A program made the translations under genes and the position numbers. From Chloroflexota bacterium (GTDB lineage: Bacteria; Chloroflexota; Dehalococcoidia; SHYB01): 37,984 nucleotides of DNA. The notes below the pieces were generated by a model. It saw only the letters and a program-made list of their open reading frames with translations, was not told the DNA's origin and did no database searches. Below are positions 19,980-35,287 of the stretch, piece after piece. Position 1 is the stretch's first letter. Each line of letters starts with the position of its first letter. The DNA lies in NCBI GenBank assembly GCA_016875535.1, contig VGPF01000021.1, forward strand, positions 1 through 37,984, written 5' to 3'.

Positions 19980-20180
19980 CTACCGCGAACGCCGGGGGGA
20001 GCCGAGCGCTAGGAGCGCCGTCCCAAAGCCGAACCCGGCAACCTCAGAGAGGATCACCATCGGCCAGGGCGAGATGTCCGTCAGCCCCCAGAAGGCCAGC
20101 GCCACCAGCACGCCAAGGACGGTCATCGCCATCGCGGCGACGATGAACTCCTCCAGCAGCGGGTCAAGCCTGGAAAGCAT
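19980..20180 (-). CDS. small membrane protein
   Basis: 66 residues from ATG 20180: MLSRLDPLLEEF, then two hydrophobic stretches (about 13-31 and 36-58) and a basic tail SPRRSR, so probably two membrane helices. No family recognised. The start overlaps the stop of the UGSC selenoprotein gene (TGATG), making it the third gene of that operon. A longer upstream reading of this frame (to 20393) lies inside the selenoprotein gene and is not used. Its stop is 6 bases from the stop of the convergent PAS-LuxR gene. Confidence 0.65.
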   Translation of the reverse strand: MLSRLDPLLEEFIVAAMAMTVLGVLVALAFWGLTDISPWPMVILSEVAGFGFGTALLALGSPRRSR

Positions 20181-20743
20181 CACGCCCTCTTCTTCGTCAG
20201 CGCCTTGATCACCTTCGGCGCAAGCGCCTTGGCGATCTCCTTCGCCTCGTCCGCCGTCCAGTGGGCAGTGGGGATGTGCGGGTACGTCACTGTCAGATAG
20301 GGATAGTCGGGCACGCCGCTTAATCGCTTCATGGAATCGGCGGAGCCTGCCATGGCTGTGTGGATCAGCGCCACCGATGGGACGCCCGCCCACTCCAGCT
20401 CTATCGCATCCCGCATACTGCGGGCGGAGCAGGAGCCTCAGCCGCCAAATCCGGTGATAGCGACCGTCGCCTCCTTGGTGAGCCGCTCCCAGTCGGGCTT
20501 GTCCGGCGGCACGGAGACGCTTCCCTTCACCACGCGCACCCTGCCGGCCAACTCCACCTCTTTCCTCAGCTCCTCATAGAGCGCGTCCATCATCGCGTCA
20601 GCCTTGCCGATGCCGTTGATGACCAGCCCCACGGTCGCGCCGCTCAGCGTAGGTGGGCGCTCTCGGAACTTCCTGGAGTCCCGCCGCTCAAGAGGTCCGC
20701 TGGTCGGGTCCAGACATACGATGCCGCCGTTGTGCGTCGCCAT
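20180..20743 (-). CDS. UGSC-motif selenoprotein (in-frame UGA read as selenocysteine)
   Basis: 187 residues if TGA at 20440-20438 is read as selenocysteine 102. Without it there are two open pieces: 1-101 ending AITGFGG, and a second beginning GSCSARSMRDAIELEW in the same frame. Together they give GFGG-U-GSCSARS, the motif of the previously named UGSC family, whose cysteine members read CGSC. The U-x-x-C arrangement implies a redox or thiol/selenol function; the reaction is not established to my knowledge. A hairpin fitting a bacterial SECIS follows the UGA. Start at ATG 20743 (MATHNGG) has GAGGAGGT upstream. The gene lies 2 bases after the 330-residue gene and overlaps the next, so it is the middle of an operon. 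Simple gene callers would split it in two. Confidence 0.9.
20410..20424 (-). promoter_or_regulatory. candidate bacterial SECIS hairpin
   Basis: On the minus strand, 13 bases after the TGA, CCCGCA and TGCGGG pair perfectly around a three-base loop GTA. The loop starts 20 bases past the TGA and its first base is G, both in line with what is known of bacterial SECIS elements, which lie in the coding sequence just after UGA and are bound by SelB. Confidence 0.7.
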
Positions 20744-20745
20744 CT

Positions 20746-21735
20746 TTACCTCCTCGCCCCTTCGATGCGCCTCGTCACAGCCAGGCCAAGGTGCGGGTGG
20801 AGGATCCACGTCTCAGCCATGCCGGGGCCACCCGCCGCCACCAACAATATACACTCCGGCCGCTTGATATTCATCGGCCCCTCCCTCGGCTCGGCGGTGA
20901 GCCTGGGAAAGAGATACTGGCGCATCCGCTCCTTGGACCATCCCGCCTCGGCAAAGTAGCGCATGTGCTCCGGCCCCATGATGAGCACCACGTTCACCTC
21001 ATCGCCCAGCCACTTATCGCCGATGACCCCCGTCTGCCGGACGCGCTTCGCCAGGCTGTTCAAGACGCCTTCAGGCGTCCGGCTCCCCGAGTCCAGACTG
21101 CTCGTCATATACATGATGGAGGCAACGGTCACGGCGCTCTCATCCGGCCGGAAGCCCCGTTCCACATGGAGCGGCTTCCAGGGACTGTCCTCTTCGTTCT
21201 CGCCGAAGCATAAGGAATAGCGCATCGGCGTGGAAAAGCTGGCCCGGTCAAGGTAGCCTGGGATGCCGCGCGCCACGTTCCGCACCATGAGGCGCAGCGC
21301 CCGCCCGATGGTGGCATTCGGCCGGAAGCCGGGGCCGAAGCACCCCGATCTGCAGGCGATGCCCAGCTCAGTGCGGATGGGCCCGTTCACGATGACGGCA
21401 TGGGCCGCGCCCGAAAGCGTTCCCGTGGTGCTGTGGAGGTTCGCCTTCTCCTCTAGGAGCGCCCGCGCCGCCGCCACGACGACGGGCATGTACTCCGGCT
21501 TGCAGCCGGCCATCACGGCGTTGATCGCCACCTGCTCGGCCGTCACCGTCACTTCGCGCGTCGGCACCGTGCCCAGGACGGCCTCCGGCGCAAGCCCCGC
21601 CGCCGCAAGGAACCGCTCGACCTTGTCAGGCGTCGGCGGCACTACAGGCAGGCCGTCGGTCCAGCCCTTCTCCATGTAGGCCTCCACCGCCGCCTCATAG
21701 CTATCGTAGTGCGCCTGCGCCGCCTTGATCTGCAT
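20746..21735 (-). CDS. unknown conserved-looking protein upstream of the selenoprotein
   Basis: 329 residues, family not recognised. The start reads MQIKAAQAHYDSYEAAVEAY, followed by WTDGLPVVPPTPDKVERFL. The middle has GAAHAVIVNGPIRTELGIA, then CRSGCFGPGFRPN, with cysteines 128 and 132 (C-x3-C), and further cysteines at 78 and 176. No transmembrane segment or signal peptide is clear, so it is likely cytoplasmic. ATG at 21735 follows GGGGAAGGGAA. A promoter lies directly upstream and the selenoprotein gene starts 2 bases after its stop, so the two are made together and may form a complex or act in sequence. A Cys-based partner for the selenol would fit, but this is inference. Confidence 0.75.
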   Translation of the reverse strand: MQIKAAQAHYDSYEAAVEAYMEKGWTDGLPVVPPTPDKVERFLAAAGLAPEAVLGTVPTREVTVTAEQVAINAVMAGCKPEYMPVVVAAARALLEEKANLHSTTGTLSGAAHAVIVNGPIRTELGIACRSGCFGPGFRPNATIGRALRLMVRNVARGIPGYLDRASFSTPMRYSLCFGENEEDSPWKPLHVERGFRPDESAVTVASIMYMTSSLDSGSRTPEGVLNSLAKRVRQTGVIGDKWLGDEVNVVLIMGPEHMRYFAEAGWSKERMRQYLFPRLTAEPREGPMNIKRPECILLVAAGGPGMAETWILHPHLGLAVTRRIEGARR

Positions 21736-21793: not shown

Positions 21794-22477
21794 CTATCCC
21801 CGCAGCGGATTCCAGGAGACCGGGTTGAGCAGCTTATCCTCCCAGTCCGTCCGCAGCGTCATCGCGCGCTTCATCCATGCCTTCAGACCCTTGTGCTTGT
21901 GCTGGACCTCCCTGATCTCTGCAAAGGCCGCCCACTCCTTGAAGACCCAGATGTTGATCGCCTCGGTATTGCTCATCGCCCGCTTATACGAGCCGACCAG
22001 TTCAACGCCACGGCTCCTCGCGACGGGCAGATATTCATCAGCGATCGCCTTCAAGTAATCGTCCACACGTCCGGGTACACATGTGAGGATTTCGTGAAGG
22101 AAGACCTGTCCCTTCACCTTGTTCTTCAGCAGCTCGGCCAGCGTCGGGGTCTTGGGGCCGGGGATCAGCAGGCGGTCATAGCCCCCTGTGCGGAATTGCC
22201 AGGCGTACTGCTCAGCCCACCCGGCCAGATTCTGGTCCTTGGGCTTGTTCACGGCATACTGCGTCTCTCGAAGGCGAGCGTAGTGCCGCCAATCGTCCAT
22301 CTCCCACAGCGCCACCGCCTCAGGCCACCTACCCGTCGTCCCCACCGTCGTCCAAAAGCCCACCAGCCTCAAGTCGCGCTTCTTCGCCACGGGCAGCCAG
22401 TTCTTCTCCAGGGCATCAATATATTCCTGCTCCTTGCCGCCCACCACGTCCACCGTCTCATGCAGATAGAGAGCCAT
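21794..22477 (-). CDS. NIPSNAP-like protein with two ferredoxin-like repeats
   Basis: 227 residues in two similar halves: LYLHETVDVVGGKEQEYIDAL with WLPVAKKRDLRLVGFWTTVG in the first, and VFLHEILTCVPGRVDDYLKA with YLPVARSRGVELVGSYKRAM in the second. Each has the beta-alpha-beta-beta pattern of dimeric alpha/beta barrels such as NIPSNAP or EthD, so one chain mimics a dimer. These proteins often accompany monooxygenases or aid aromatic degradation, but no reaction is assigned. GGGAGGGGCGAAG precedes the ATG. An LLM gene lies just upstream on the same strand. Confidence 0.8.
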   Translation of the reverse strand: MALYLHETVDVVGGKEQEYIDALEKNWLPVAKKRDLRLVGFWTTVGTTGRWPEAVALWEMDDWRHYARLRETQYAVNKPKDQNLAGWAEQYAWQFRTGGYDRLLIPGPKTPTLAELLKNKVKGQVFLHEILTCVPGRVDDYLKAIADEYLPVARSRGVELVGSYKRAMSNTEAINIWVFKEWAAFAEIREVQHKHKGLKAWMKRAMTLRTDWEDKLLNPVSWNPLRG

Positions 22478-22569: not shown

Positions 22570-23580
22570 TTACACCTTCGGCATGACCTCTTTCGCAAAA
22601 CGCTCCACTTGCTGATAGAACTCCGCCTCCGTCTTCCCGCCAAAGCCGACGATGAAGGAGTCCACCCCGGCAGCCTTGTAGCGCTTCAGCTCGCCGATGA
22701 GGTGCTCCGGGCTTCCGCGCCCGCGAAAGCTCTCGGCCTTCGGCGAGCTCTCGCGCGCCGCCTCCGCGGTGCGCCCCTCCATATGCAGAGGCTTGCCTCC
22801 GCCTGCGCTGTCAACCTGTATGAAGCCCGTGAGCAAGACCACATCCATTTTGTACGGCTTGCCCAGCCGCTTCGCCGTCTCTCTCCCATACGCGATGCCC
22901 TTGCGGATATCGTCCGGCGTCGTCGCGCCCGTCGGGATGGGAAAGCCCTTGATGATCTTTTCGTGCTGGCGCTTGTACTCCTCGGTGACCACCGGGAAAG
23001 CCAGGGGGAACCATGCATCGCCGTACTCGATGGCGCGGCGCACCGCCCGGAGCGAGCTGCCGCCCGACCAGATAGGCGAATGGGGCCTCTGCACCGGCTT
23101 GGGATGCATGGAGATATCCTTGAAGGAGTACCACTTGCCTGTGAATGATGCGCTCTCCTTCGTCCACACCTCCCGCATCACCGCAAGGAACTCGTCGGTC
23201 ATCGCGCCGCGCTGTTCGATGGGTAAATTGAATGCTGTGAACTCCTCAGGCAGATAGCCCGGCACCACACCGAGGATGAAGCGACCGTCCGAAAGGACGT
23301 CAAGGCTCGCCACCGCCTTCGCAACGGCCAGCGGCTGCCGGTACGGAACGACCAGACAGCCGACGAGCAGCCGGATGCGTGAGGTCTTGGCGGCAAGGTA
23401 CGAAAGGATCGTGAACGGCTCCCACTCGATGTCTCCCCCGGGCCGCTTCCAGTAATCGGGACGGAAGACATGGTCGTCCGTGAGGATCGAATCGTAGCCC
23501 AGCGCTTCAGCCCGCCCGACCAGCTGGATGACCGACTCCTTGCTCGTGAAGGCCGGATTGAAAAATAGGCCGAACTTCAT
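22570..23580 (-). CDS. luciferase-like (LLM) flavin- or F420-dependent oxidoreductase
   Basis: 336 residues, the third LLM protein of the window and closest in style to the F420-type branch (MKFGLFFNPAFTSKESVIQL, then ALGYDSILTDDHVFRPDYW, and VASLDVLSDGRFILGVVPGY). The end has RYKAAGVDSFIVGFGGKTE. Start at 23580 is preferred to 23625 because the M-K-F-G-L-F start is that of the family, although no ribosome site precedes it. A promoter's -10 box ends six bases before this ATG, so the mRNA may be leaderless. Confidence 0.88.
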   Translation of the reverse strand: MKFGLFFNPAFTSKESVIQLVGRAEALGYDSILTDDHVFRPDYWKRPGGDIEWEPFTILSYLAAKTSRIRLLVGCLVVPYRQPLAVAKAVASLDVLSDGRFILGVVPGYLPEEFTAFNLPIEQRGAMTDEFLAVMREVWTKESASFTGKWYSFKDISMHPKPVQRPHSPIWSGGSSLRAVRRAIEYGDAWFPLAFPVVTEEYKRQHEKIIKGFPIPTGATTPDDIRKGIAYGRETAKRLGKPYKMDVVLLTGFIQVDSAGGGKPLHMEGRTAEAARESSPKAESFRGRGSPEHLIGELKRYKAAGVDSFIVGFGGKTEAEFYQQVERFAKEVMPKV

Positions 23581-23586
23581 GGGGCA

Positions 23587-23615
23587 AGGGTAGTGGGCAA
23601 CTACATGGGAGTCAA
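23587..23615 (-). promoter_or_regulatory. promoter giving a leaderless mRNA
   Basis: Minus strand TTGACT (23615-23610), 17 bp, TACCCT (23592-23587). Transcription would start at or within a base or two of the ATG at 23580. Confidence 0.5.
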
Positions 23616-23636
23616 CAGCCCGCAAACCGGGAAGAC

Positions 23637-31715: not shown

Positions 31716-32051
31716 ATGATTACAGTGACCTACGCAGCAAATGAAAAGATCAAGGAAATCATGAAGGAGCAGGGCGAAGAAAACACCGCTCTCCGTGTCA
31801 TCGTGACCGGCCAAGGCTGTTCGGGCCCCCAGTACATGATGACCCTTGATAACGAGGCCCAGACCGACGACCAGACCTTCGAGTCCATGGGCCTGAAGAT
31901 CGTTGTGGACCCGGATACCGCCAGCGTCCTGGAAGGCTCCCAGATTGATTACCTGGTCGGCATCGAAAAGTCCGGCTTCGTTATCAGCAACCCAACCTTC
32001 AAGATGCAGGGCGGCGGCGGGGGCTGCGGAAGCTGCGGCTGCGGCAAGTAG
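31716..32051 (+). CDS. A-type iron-sulfur carrier (HesB/IscA/ErpA-like)
   Basis: 111 residues. A-type carriers bind and hand on Fe-S clusters through three cysteines. The first is in VTGQGCSGPQYMM, the others in the C-terminal GGGCGSCGCGK, which has three Cys rather than the usual two (C-x2-C-x-C). The rest follows the family (GLKIVVDPDTASVLEGSQID, GFVISNPTF). CCAGGAGGAAT precedes the ATG. It has its own promoter and a strong terminator after the stop; a cysteine desulfurase homologue begins 75 bases on. Confidence 0.9.
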   Translation: MITVTYAANEKIKEIMKEQGEENTALRVIVTGQGCSGPQYMMTLDNEAQTDDQTFESMGLKIVVDPDTASVLEGSQIDYLVGIEKSGFVISNPTFKMQGGGGGCGSCGCGK

Positions 32052-32075
32052 CCACTACGCAAAGCGTCGTATGAT

Positions 32076-32109
32076 ACAGGGAGGCGGAAATCCGCCTCCC
32101 TGTTCTTTT
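32076..32109 (+). terminator. intrinsic terminator after the A-type carrier gene
   Basis: Perfect 13-bp stem (32076-32088 with 32091-32103) on ACAGGGAGGCGGA, followed by TCTTTTT. It lies only 18 bases before the desulfurase start, so that gene depends on read-through or an unseen promoter. Confidence 0.9.
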
Positions 32110-32126
32110 TCCCAGGAGCGCTGCCG

Positions 32127-33299
32127 GTGGTCAAAACGCCGAAATTGCCCCTCTACCTGGACTACATGGCCTCCACGCCCTGTCTCCCGGAAGTCGTCCA
32201 GGCCATGCTCCCCTACTTCTCAGAGCGCTTCCACAACCCGCAAAGCGCTCACCCGCCGGGCGAAGAGTCCCTGGAGGCCATCGAGCGGGCGCGCCGCACG
32301 CTGGCCCTCCTCATCGGCGCCCCTTCGCCAAAGGACCTCTTCTTCACCTCTGGCGCGACTGAGTCCAACAATTGGGCGCTCAAAGGCATCCTCCAGCTGC
32401 CAAATCGTCGCGGCAGCCATATCCTCATCTCTCAGATCGAGCACCTCTCCATCACCCACCCCTGCAAGTCCCTTGAGCGCCAGGACGTCACCGCCACCCA
32501 GGTCGCAGTGGATAGGCTCGGCCGCGTCAGTCCCGATGCGGTGAAAAAGGCCATCCGAACGGAGACAGCCCTCGTCTCCATCACCCATGCTAGCAACGAG
32601 GTCGGCACACTGGAGCCTATCGCTGACATCGCCCAGGTCTGCCGCAAAGCCGGCGTCCCCCTCCACGTAGACGCCTCGAACACCGTGGGCATCGTTCCCA
32701 TCAGCGTCGCCCAGCTCGGCTGCGACCTGATGACCATCTCGCCCCATATGTTCTATGGGCCAAAGGGCATCGGCGCCCTCTACGTGCGCCGCGGCCTACG
32801 CCTGCCGCCCCTCATCGAAGGCGGCACCCAAGAAGAGGGCCGGCGCGCAGGGACGGAGAACGTCCCCGCCATCGTCGGCCTCGGCGTCGCCTGCGAGTTG
32901 GCCCTTCGCGATATGGCCTCCCGCGCGCGCCGCTTCACCGCCCTCCGCGACCGCCTCATCTCGGGCCTGCGCCCCCTAAAGGGCCTTCACCTCACCGGCG
33001 ACCTGGCGAACCGCCTCCCCCATCACGTCAGTTGCGTCATAGACGGCGTCGAAAGCGAAACGATCCTCCAAGCCCTCGCACTGGATGACCAGGTCTACGC
33101 CGCCAGCGGAACCGCCTGCTCCGCCAAGGCCAAACAGCCCAGCTACGTCCTCCAGGCCCTAGGCTATAGCGAACAGCACGCCTCTGGCTCCCTCGTCTTC
33201 TCCCTCGGCCTCGAAACCACGGAGAATGAGATAGACTATCTGCTGGACGTCCTGCCCAAGGCCATCGTCCGCGTCCGCTCACTCTCCACAAACCATTGA
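32127..33299 (+). CDS. cysteine desulfurase homologue lacking the PLP lysine
   Basis: 390 residues, NifS/IscS type. Family residues present: LDYMASTP start, FTSGATESNNWALKG, His106 in ISQIEHLSI, Asp182 in HVDASNTVG, GGTQEEGRRAGTENV, and the mobile-loop cysteine C331 in GTACSAKAKQPSYVL. The PLP Schiff-base lysine, in IscS within S-H-K-I-Y-G-P-K-G, is Met208 here (SPHMFYGPKG), and the PLP-contact Gln is Asn185. Either the enzyme is inactive in the normal sense, another Lys takes over, or it works as a sulfur/selenium acceptor. GTG start with CCAGGAGCG upstream. It is followed 2 bases later by a TusA gene, which suits sulfur relay. Confidence 0.85.
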   Translation: MVKTPKLPLYLDYMASTPCLPEVVQAMLPYFSERFHNPQSAHPPGEESLEAIERARRTLALLIGAPSPKDLFFTSGATESNNWALKGILQLPNRRGSHILISQIEHLSITHPCKSLERQDVTATQVAVDRLGRVSPDAVKKAIRTETALVSITHASNEVGTLEPIADIAQVCRKAGVPLHVDASNTVGIVPISVAQLGCDLMTISPHMFYGPKGIGALYVRRGLRLPPLIEGGTQEEGRRAGTENVPAIVGLGVACELALRDMASRARRFTALRDRLISGLRPLKGLHLTGDLANRLPHHVSCVIDGVESETILQALALDDQVYAASGTACSAKAKQPSYVLQALGYSEQHASGSLVFSLGLETTENEIDYLLDVLPKAIVRVRSLSTNH

Positions 33300-33301
33300 A
33301 C

Positions 33302-33577
33302 ATGCGCGCCAAGAAGATACCCAAACAGCCCCTCCCCAAGCCCGATGAGACGCTGGATGCCTTGGGCCTCTTTTGCCCCGTTCCCGTCTGGGAGGCGGCC
33401 AAGCACATCATCGAGATGAAGCCCGGCCAAGTGCTGGAGCTTCTCTCCGATGACGAAGGAATCACGGAAGATATGCCCGCCTGGTGCCGGCGGACAGGCC
33501 ATCTCCTCCTCGCCATCGAGGAGGATGCCGAAGATGCGGGCGTCTACCACGTCTACGTACGCAAGGCCGGGAAGTAG
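33302..33577 (+). CDS. TusA-family sulfur carrier
   Basis: 91 residues. DALGLFCPVPVWEAAKHIIE carries the CPxP-type active-site cysteine of TusA/YedF proteins, which take persulfide sulfur from a desulfurase for tRNA thiolation, molybdenum cofactor or selenium metabolism. The following VLELLSDDEGITEDMPAWCRR and the short beta strands complete the small two-layer fold. ATG at 33302 follows the desulfurase stop by 2 bases; the poor ribosome site implies coupling. Which pathway it feeds is not shown by sequence. Confidence 0.88.
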   Translation: MRAKKIPKQPLPKPDETLDALGLFCPVPVWEAAKHIIEMKPGQVLELLSDDEGITEDMPAWCRRTGHLLLAIEEDAEDAGVYHVYVRKAGK

Positions 33578-34345: not shown

Positions 34346-35287
34346 CTACTTATGCCCCGCCACCGCACCCGTCGTGATGAACTCATAGGCCGCGATCGCC
34401 GCCGTCACGCCGTCGCCCGCCGAGTTCGCCAGCTGCTTTGTGGACTTCCACCGGCAATCCCCCGCGGCAAAGACGCCTGGGACGTTCGTCTGCATCATGA
34501 TATCTACCTTCACATGCCCGCCCGCGTCTAGCTCGATCTCCGGCTTAAAGACCTCCGTCAGCGGCGTGAAGCCGATATAGACAAAAACCCCCTGCGTCGG
34601 CATCTCTGACTTCTGTCCCGTTTTCAGGTTCCTTAGCGATACGCTCTCCACCTGGCCGTTGCCGCCGATCCGCTCTACCACGCTATCCCACACGAACTTC
34701 ATCTTGGGATTCGCGAAGGCCCGTTCCTGCTGGATCTTGCTCGCCCGCAGCGCATCCCTGCGGTGGACAACCGTGACTGATTTGCACATCCGCGTCAGGT
34801 AGAGCCCCTCTTGCACCGCGGAATCCCCGCCGCCTACCACCGTCACATCCATATTGGTGAAAAAATTGCCGTCGCACGTGGCGCAGTAGGAGACGCCCTT
34901 CGCGCCGAACTCGTCTTCGCCCGGCACCCCGAGCTTCTTGTGTTCGCCGCCCGTCGCGATGATGACCGCCTTCGCGTGGTACTCCTCGTCATCCGTCCAC
35001 AGCTTGAACGGCGGCCCGCCCTCGAGCGCCACCTTCGTCACCTCGCCGAAGCCGTATTCCGCGCCGAACTTGGTCGCCTGGGATTCCGTCTCCGTGATCA
35101 GGTCCACCCCGGTGATCTGCTTGGAGACGCCCGGGTAGTTCTCGATGGCGTCTGTGTTGATGATCTGGCCCCCCATCACCGCCCGCTCCAGCACCAGCGT
35201 CTTCAGCTGGGAGCGCGTCGTGTAGATAGCGGCGCTGAGTCCGCAGAATCCGCCGCCGATGATGACTACGTCATACTGCTGGGCCAC
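34346..35287 (-). CDS. trxB: thioredoxin reductase
   Basis: 313 residues. TrxB transfers electrons from NADPH through FAD to thioredoxin. Seen: the N-terminal FAD loop GGGFCGLSAA, the redox pair C135 and C138 in SYCATCDG, the NADPH loop VGGGDSAVQEG, and GVFAAGDC near the C-terminus. The NADPH-type basic residues are in VVHRRDALRAS. It starts 39 bases after lgt on the same strand, so lgt-trxB is probably one transcript. Ordinary thiol-disulfide partner of the thioredoxin system; possible reductant for the UGSC protein. Confidence 0.95.
   Translation of the reverse strand: MAQQYDVVIIGGGFCGLSAAIYTTRSQLKTLVLERAVMGGQIINTDAIENYPGVSKQITGVDLITETESQATKFGAEYGFGEVTKVALEGGPPFKLWTDDEEYHAKAVIIATGGEHKKLGVPGEDEFGAKGVSYCATCDGNFFTNMDVTVVGGGDSAVQEGLYLTRMCKSVTVVHRRDALRASKIQQERAFANPKMKFVWDSVVERIGGNGQVESVSLRNLKTGQKSEMPTQGVFVYIGFTPLTEVFKPEIELDAGGHVKVDIMMQTNVPGVFAAGDCRWKSTKQLANSAGDGVTAAIAAYEFITTGAVAGHK

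Follow-up and report, generated by a model that had tools for sequence, protein, structure and literature searches.

A UGSC-family selenoprotein gene in a Chloroflexota bacterium, its linked partner gene, and a probable distant relation to the selenocysteine domain of GrdB

RESULTS

The locus

We analyzed a 37,984-nucleotide stretch of DNA (here, the window) from a Chloroflexota bacterium. On its minus strand, a UGSC-family selenoprotein gene (20180..20743; 187 aa) runs from an ATG at 20743 through an in-frame TGA (20440-20438) and onward in the same frame to a terminal TGA (20182-20180). The read-through product (M1...GFGG-U102-GSCSARS...A187; with the first TGA written as Sec, ...VAITGFGG-U-GSCSARSMRDAIELEWAGVPSVAL...) contains the U-G-S-C motif that characterizes the family (U102-G-S-C105). 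Sec102 corresponds to the TGA (minus strand, 20438..20440), and the probable resolving cysteine, Cys105, is encoded at 20429-20431 on the same strand. An earlier note had described the gene as two same-frame pieces separated by TGA, the first with a proper start and ribosome site, which ordinary gene calling would split. The ribosome site was found: GAGGAGG precedes ATG 20743 and falls in the 3'-terminal part of the gene upstream, which ends 2 nt before this ATG.

That upstream gene (20746..21735, minus strand) encodes a 329-aa protein, referred to here as the partner. Farther upstream on the same strand are genes for a NIPSNAP-domain protein (21794..22477; 58-nt gap) and a luciferase-like (LLM class) flavin/F420 oxidoreductase (22570..23625; 92-nt gap), both of which probably belong to the same transcription unit, a putative operon. 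On the other side, the ATG of a small hydrophobic open reading frame (19980..20181, minus strand), predicted to resemble a membrane protein, overlaps the UGSC stop codon (TGATG). Neighbors in the window include the NIPSNAP protein, several LLM oxidoreductases, an amidohydrolase, MaoC/FAS1-like dehydratases, an FAA hydrolase, and a ChsH2-like OB protein.

Family membership and conservation of the in-frame TGA

Read-through of the two pieces was confirmed, whereas the split frame by itself turned out not to be unusual. Across the whole window, 92 open frames of at least 90 codons end in TGA, and 20 of them were followed by at least 84 further open codons; because so many comparable frames are also open in this GC-rich window, the split frame alone was left out as evidence. 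What goes beyond chance, to judge from the comparisons below, is a full-length family match across the TGA, conservation of the TGA column, selection on both sides of it, and a hairpin downstream.

The Pfam UGSC family (PF24696) matched residues 11-183 of 187 (150.6 bits against a cut-off of 25; E, 6.2e-44), i.e., the full length across the TGA, in agreement with the family identity proposed in the earlier note. NCBIfam NF041046 scored 91.9 bits (Cys written for Sec); as this is under the equivalog cut-off of 125, the gene is regarded as a divergent UGSC member, assigned through PF24696 only. It resembles the known family (PF24696/NF041046; the UGSC-containing protein of PMC2398784) in the full-length Pfam match, in the U-G-S-C motif, in the existence of both Sec and Cys members, and in fusion to a second domain. 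It differs in its NF041046 score and in that the Trx-like fold of the literature was not supported by our model. Seven UGSC genes were present in the bacterium's own genome; one is of Cys type (GACWGT; C10), and the other six each have a single TGA at the motif. Relatives in the same taxonomic family had 6 to 8 UGSC genes each, and UGSC was present in 78 of 245 genomes of the class.

Eight homologous loci from other bacteria (L051-L058; 43 to 67% identity) carried TGA in the same column. Among 166 sequences, TGA occupied this column in 96%, and Cys105 was conserved in 98%. The TGA and the part downstream of it were thus conserved in homologues; the earlier note had named their nonconservation as grounds for abandoning its reading. 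The dN/dS ratios (six comparisons) were 0.16 to 0.49 before the TGA and 0.20 to 0.54 after it, indicating similar purifying selection on both sides. Ordinary gene calling would indeed split the gene, and relatives are likewise easily split: on Paracoccus ferrooxidans plasmid pFER4, a Sec-form UGSC (L222:7360-7929) is annotated as two hypothetical proteins separated at the TGA. In that plasmid, a partner gene comes after UGSC, selB lies approximately 4 kb downstream, and genes for a cysteine desulfurase and TusA are upstream.

A SECIS-like hairpin and the selenocysteine machinery

A bacterial-SECIS-like hairpin (20408..20426, minus strand) has its stem starting approximately 16 nt past the UGA, and its paired core in this copy is CCCGCA-GUA-UGCGGG (20424-20410). 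The apical loop is mostly NGUNN. The hairpin has both features looked for in such elements: it lies just downstream of the UGA and has a G early in its loop. In 25 ungapped sequences, the covariation score of the named helix was 0.462, compared with 0.109 +/- 0.026 for shuffles; none of 500 shuffles reached this score, and a slid helix scored at most 0.160. The covarying pairs exchange C-G, U-A, A-U, and G-U, and these exchanges are not independent events because the sequences are related. Against a null in which the protein sequence was fixed and codons were redrawn synonymously, the folding energy of 34 related sequences averaged -9.6 versus -5.5 kcal/mol (mean z, -1.6), and the copy in the window taken alone had a z of -1.1.

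The genome (2.5 Mb; 98% complete) was searched for the four components of selenocysteine insertion, as the earlier note had advised, and all were found: selA (C2:149548; 542 bits), selB (C31:18269; 334 bits), selD (C4:99428; 371 bits), and tRNA-Sec, i.e., selC (C2:15177; 66 bits; ARAGORN SeC, anticodon tca). The absence of selB or selC, which that note would have taken as refutation, did not occur. The selD gene has its own in-frame TGA at the usual Sec position (LTKCGG-U-AAKYGPGDL). Throughout the class, SelB was above cut-off in 164 of 245 genomes, comprising 72 of the 78 UGSC genomes versus 92 of the 167 without UGSC (read from best E-values; Fisher P, 1e-9). Elsewhere in the window, genes for an IscA/HesB-type protein, a cysteine desulfurase, and a TusA-like protein stand in a row (31716-33577); the latter two could be candidate selenium feeders.

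With the machinery in the genome, a conserved TGA column, and a covarying hairpin, the UGA at 20440-20438 is almost certainly decoded as selenocysteine 102, as had been proposed. A pseudogene or a sequencing error was rejected on the strength of the conserved TGA, the dN/dS values, and the SECIS covariation. More broadly, the view that the TGA marks a nonsense-mutated pseudogene, a sequencing error, or two separate genes can draw on the frequency of long frames past a TGA in this GC-rich sequence (20 of 92), but it is already contradicted by a TGA kept across genera and classes with dN/dS alike on either side, by the covariation, and by the complete Sec machinery, and we find it scarcely credible. 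Still less credible is decoding of the TGA as another amino acid (e.g., Trp) by a variant code or a suppressor: archaeal forms, several bacterial ones, and the C10 paralogue have Cys at the corresponding position, the genome has tRNA-Sec and SelB, and the gene's own terminator is TGA. The gene adds a genuine member to a selenoprotein family that was already known, and it is ordinary for that family; what deserves attention is its GrdB homology, its partner, the thioredoxin link, and the expansion in a class relative, G031.

A linked partner gene

The partner gene was adjacent or fused to UGSC at 34 of 38 UGSC loci. The four exceptions were one locus cut by a contig end (L037), one that was degenerate (L059), and two with no partner detected within approximately 1.5 kb (L023 and L046). 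Six loci were natural fusions of approximately 570 aa, with UGSC N-terminal and the partner behind. The bacterium's own genome contained seven full-length partners for its seven UGSC genes, all linked. Partners occurred in 73 of 245 class genomes, all of them among the 78 with UGSC (Fisher P, 6e-57, which is nominal because the genomes are related), and the five UGSC genomes without a partner had weaker UGSC hits. From this linkage, fusion, and co-occurrence, UGSC and the partner very probably form a functional pair, and we infer that they may also form a physical complex. The UGSC-partner fusion is probably the same thing as a fusion described in 2008 under the name UGSC/Unknown_1 (PMC2398784).

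An eighth partner-like stretch in the same genome (C27:1448-1945; L067), without a UGSC part and joined to unrelated sequence, was considered as a second selenoprotein type for its TGA and was rejected; it looks like a truncated remnant.

Profile searches against Pfam and NCBIfam gave no family match for the partner. Its conserved motifs are DGxP..PPT, N-AVMAGC (Cys78), GP, N..IGR..RL, and E.E....W.P, and conserved residues include N72, AGC78, GP119, N140, G144-R145, N153, E179, E181, and W186. The top hit of a fold search (Foldseek E, 9e-3) was not convincing; the best Z score of the partner model was 6.3 over approximately 80 residues, to chorismate-mutase/YjgF-like proteins. Compared with two GrdE sequences (the pyruvoyl subunit of glycine reductase), the partner had no similarity (hhalign probability, 0.1); to judge from this small sample, any substrate activation would probably have to differ from that in glycine reductase.

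Thioredoxin genes near UGSC-partner pairs

Genes for thioredoxin (trxA) or its reductase (trxB) lie near several Cys-type pairs. The order is trxB-trxA-partner-UGSC(Cys) on an Arthrobacter plasmid and partner-UGSC(Cys)-trxB on a Roseovarius plasmid, and a Variovorax plasmid has a Cys-type pair with trxB a few genes upstream. In glycine reductase, thioredoxin is the reductant and an Se-C bond is cleaved (PMC10298544); the pairs adjacent to trx genes match thioredoxin as the donor in that enzyme. No trx gene adjoins the UGSC pair in the present window. A thioredoxin-reductase-like gene with a CATCD motif (34346-35287) lies 13 kb from the pair and is a candidate electron donor. Around pairs elsewhere, we found catabolic and transport genes: those for parts of ABC, TTT, or TRAP transporters, CoA-transferases, LysR regulators, a CocE/NonD hydrolase, and LLM oxidoreductases.

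Fold of UGSC and relation to GrdB

In an AlphaFold2 model of UGSC from nine sequences (mean pLDDT, 82; pTM, 0.82), strands and helices are predicted to alternate, and U102 sits between the strand at 94-98 and the helix at 103-118; the structure models overall rest on 9 to 10 fairly close sequences. The thioredoxin topology is a mixed sheet, b-a-b-a-b-b-a. The best PDB matches of the model were flavodoxin, TIR, PurE, LarB, and CheY-like domains, which say nothing on UGSC function because these are common folds. The fold is accordingly predicted to be flavodoxin-like alpha/beta, in which the Sec comes after the third strand and before the next helix. Trx-fold chains were absent from the fold-match lists for this model; a Trx fold may still prove correct. 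Searches of solved structures by sequence, with two alignments, returned nothing significant.

GrdB (PF07355) loci in related genomes provided another comparison. Their Pfam matches end just before a TGA, past which the sequence continues (...AVVLTGT-U-GTGTRCGATLTKEMERAGIPGVLITA...); the PF07355 model therefore does not cover the Sec domain. Aligned by hhalign, UGSC matched this GrdB-like Sec domain with a probability of 94.2 (P, 1.1e-7), with Sec on Sec. A deeper set gave 95.5 (P, 1.3e-8), again with the Sec columns aligned, and reversed-sequence controls gave 1 to 2. PF07355 itself, which as a model stops short of the Sec domain, did not match the UGSC protein even at an E value of 10, and UGSC is hence not a PF07355 member. 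We consider it likely, on these profile alignments, that UGSC corresponds, as a separate protein, to the Sec-containing C-terminal domain of GrdB/PrdB and is distantly homologous to it.

In UGSC, as in GrdB and D-proline reductase PrdB, a beta strand leads into a U-x-x-C/T motif that contains the Sec, and a helix and an (E)..GIP(T/S)V strand come next; in both cases, a two-component enzyme is involved or proposed, and thioredoxin genes are nearby in some lineages. UGSC differs in lacking the N-terminal GrdB part and any PF07355 match, in its partner, which is apparently from an unrelated family (no pyruvoyl GrdE/PrdA-like partner was detected, the comparison covering two GrdE sequences), and in its catabolic neighbors. 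Class relatives also encode short GrdB-like selenoproteins (L157-L180). Like UGSC, these are short, are homologous to the GrdB Sec domain, and have a TGA in the gene; they differ from UGSC in having a U-P-x-C motif and a PF07355 match; because that match ends just before the TGA, their annotation tends to be truncated.

These comparisons bear on the literature's assumption that UGSC is a generic thioredoxin-like selenoprotein that handles thiol-disulfides or peroxides. The protein was given as likely Trx-like in 2008 (PMC2398784), and a 2026 review places it among Trx-fold selenoproteins. The UxxC redox motif fits that assumption. The predicted alternation of strands and helices, the PDB matches to other folds, and the profile match to GrdB do not, and a large, near-obligate partner together with trxA/trxB neighbors suggests that UGSC consumes thioredoxin electrons rather than being a thioredoxin itself. 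We judge a generic thioredoxin-like role to be improbable.

Distant fusions without the U/C-C pair

Distant fused UGSC-partner homologues in Sporomusa (L219:7320-9044) and Vibrio europaeus (L223:7344-9029) have MGTS in place of UGSC. These fusions are located near aconitase X/DUF126 genes. As they carry M-G-T-S, part of the family would work without the U/C-C redox pair; by sequence, this branch appears to have lost, or never to have had, Sec/Cys chemistry. Retention of the architecture with MGTS in such a setting, together with the many conserved polar residues of the partner (including Cys78), favors a nonreductive alternative in which the partner is the real catalyst (a lyase, hydrolase, or isomerase) and UGSC contributes a nucleophile or a binding surface. 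Sec or Cys together with the resolving Cys is found in nearly all of the 166 sequences, and trxB/trxA linkage recurs across several lineages; both argue against this alternative, which we regard as unlikely but worth keeping in view.

Expansion in a class relative

The draft genome of a class relative, G031, spans 5.0 Mb (96% complete; 7% contamination) and had at least 150 UGSC matches above cut-off (best 150 of 208 candidates scored). At least 146 of these genes contained one or two TGA codons, and 4 of the 150 scored had none. In 16 stretches of this genome (among L076, L125-L153, and L181-L196), 62 of 63 copies had a U-G-x-C/U motif, and the hairpin was present in 62 of 62. Nearest-neighbor identity in the stretches read had a median of 69% and a maximum of 92%, so the copies are not simple strain duplicates. 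One 350-kb contig carried 20 copies and one 359-kb contig carried 18. Many copies were partner fusions, and open reading frames resembling solute-binding lipoproteins (judged by eye) lay interspersed among the copies. The genome has selB (353 bits); tRNA-Sec was not found among the best 135 of 734 candidates or in the parts read. Published selenoproteome records stand at 57 and 63 selenoproteins (PMC13188914). The approximately 146 TGA-bearing UGSC genes, at least, amount to more than twice the bacterial record of 63, in a draft genome for which co-assembly is possible.

DISCUSSION

What this analysis adds to the earlier note is the partner gene, the homology to GrdB, the covariation in the SECIS-like hairpin, and the paralogue expansion. 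The best overall explanation, in which we place moderate confidence, is a UGSC selenoprotein with a GrdB-like Sec domain that forms a two-component enzyme with the 329-aa partner and carries out reductive cleavage. SelB and tRNA-Sec would decode the UGA as Sec102, aided by the hairpin just downstream, and UGSC would then work together with the protein encoded directly upstream. The partner domain may bind and activate a small organic substrate, an electrophilic atom of which would be attacked by the Sec102 selenolate. The Sec adduct or oxidized Sec could be resolved as a bond between Sec102 and Cys105 (or Cys78 of the partner), to be re-reduced by thioredoxin and thioredoxin reductase. Overall, the pair would cleave its substrate reductively, as glycine and proline reductases do, here in a catabolic setting, and paralogous pairs within one genome may act on different substrates.

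The assignment of Sec as the nucleophile, of Cys105 and perhaps Cys78 as resolving residues, of thioredoxin as the reductant, and of small organic compounds as the molecules cleaved is what we infer for the pair. This reductive-cleavage mechanism has about an even chance of being correct. Somewhat more tentative is the wider proposal that UGSC and its partner represent a previously unrecognized class of selenoenzymes, two-component and driven by thioredoxin, with the GrdB Sec domain as their foundation, which may have diversified into substrate-specific catabolic reductases, with at least 146 UGA-containing genes in G031.

UGSC has been among the commonest environmental selenoproteins since 2008, without a function and with a fold guess that is apparently wrong. 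Its placement with the Sec domain of GrdB, together with its ties to the partner gene and thioredoxin reductase, helps make its function testable. Cys versions exist on plasmids of cultured Arthrobacter, Roseovarius, and Variovorax; the function is therefore directly testable without selenium. For annotation, the finding means that gene callers can easily break UGSC and related genes in two at the TGA. If the expansion in G031 is real, it would represent selenocysteine use at a previously unreported scale, in arrays of catabolic genes.
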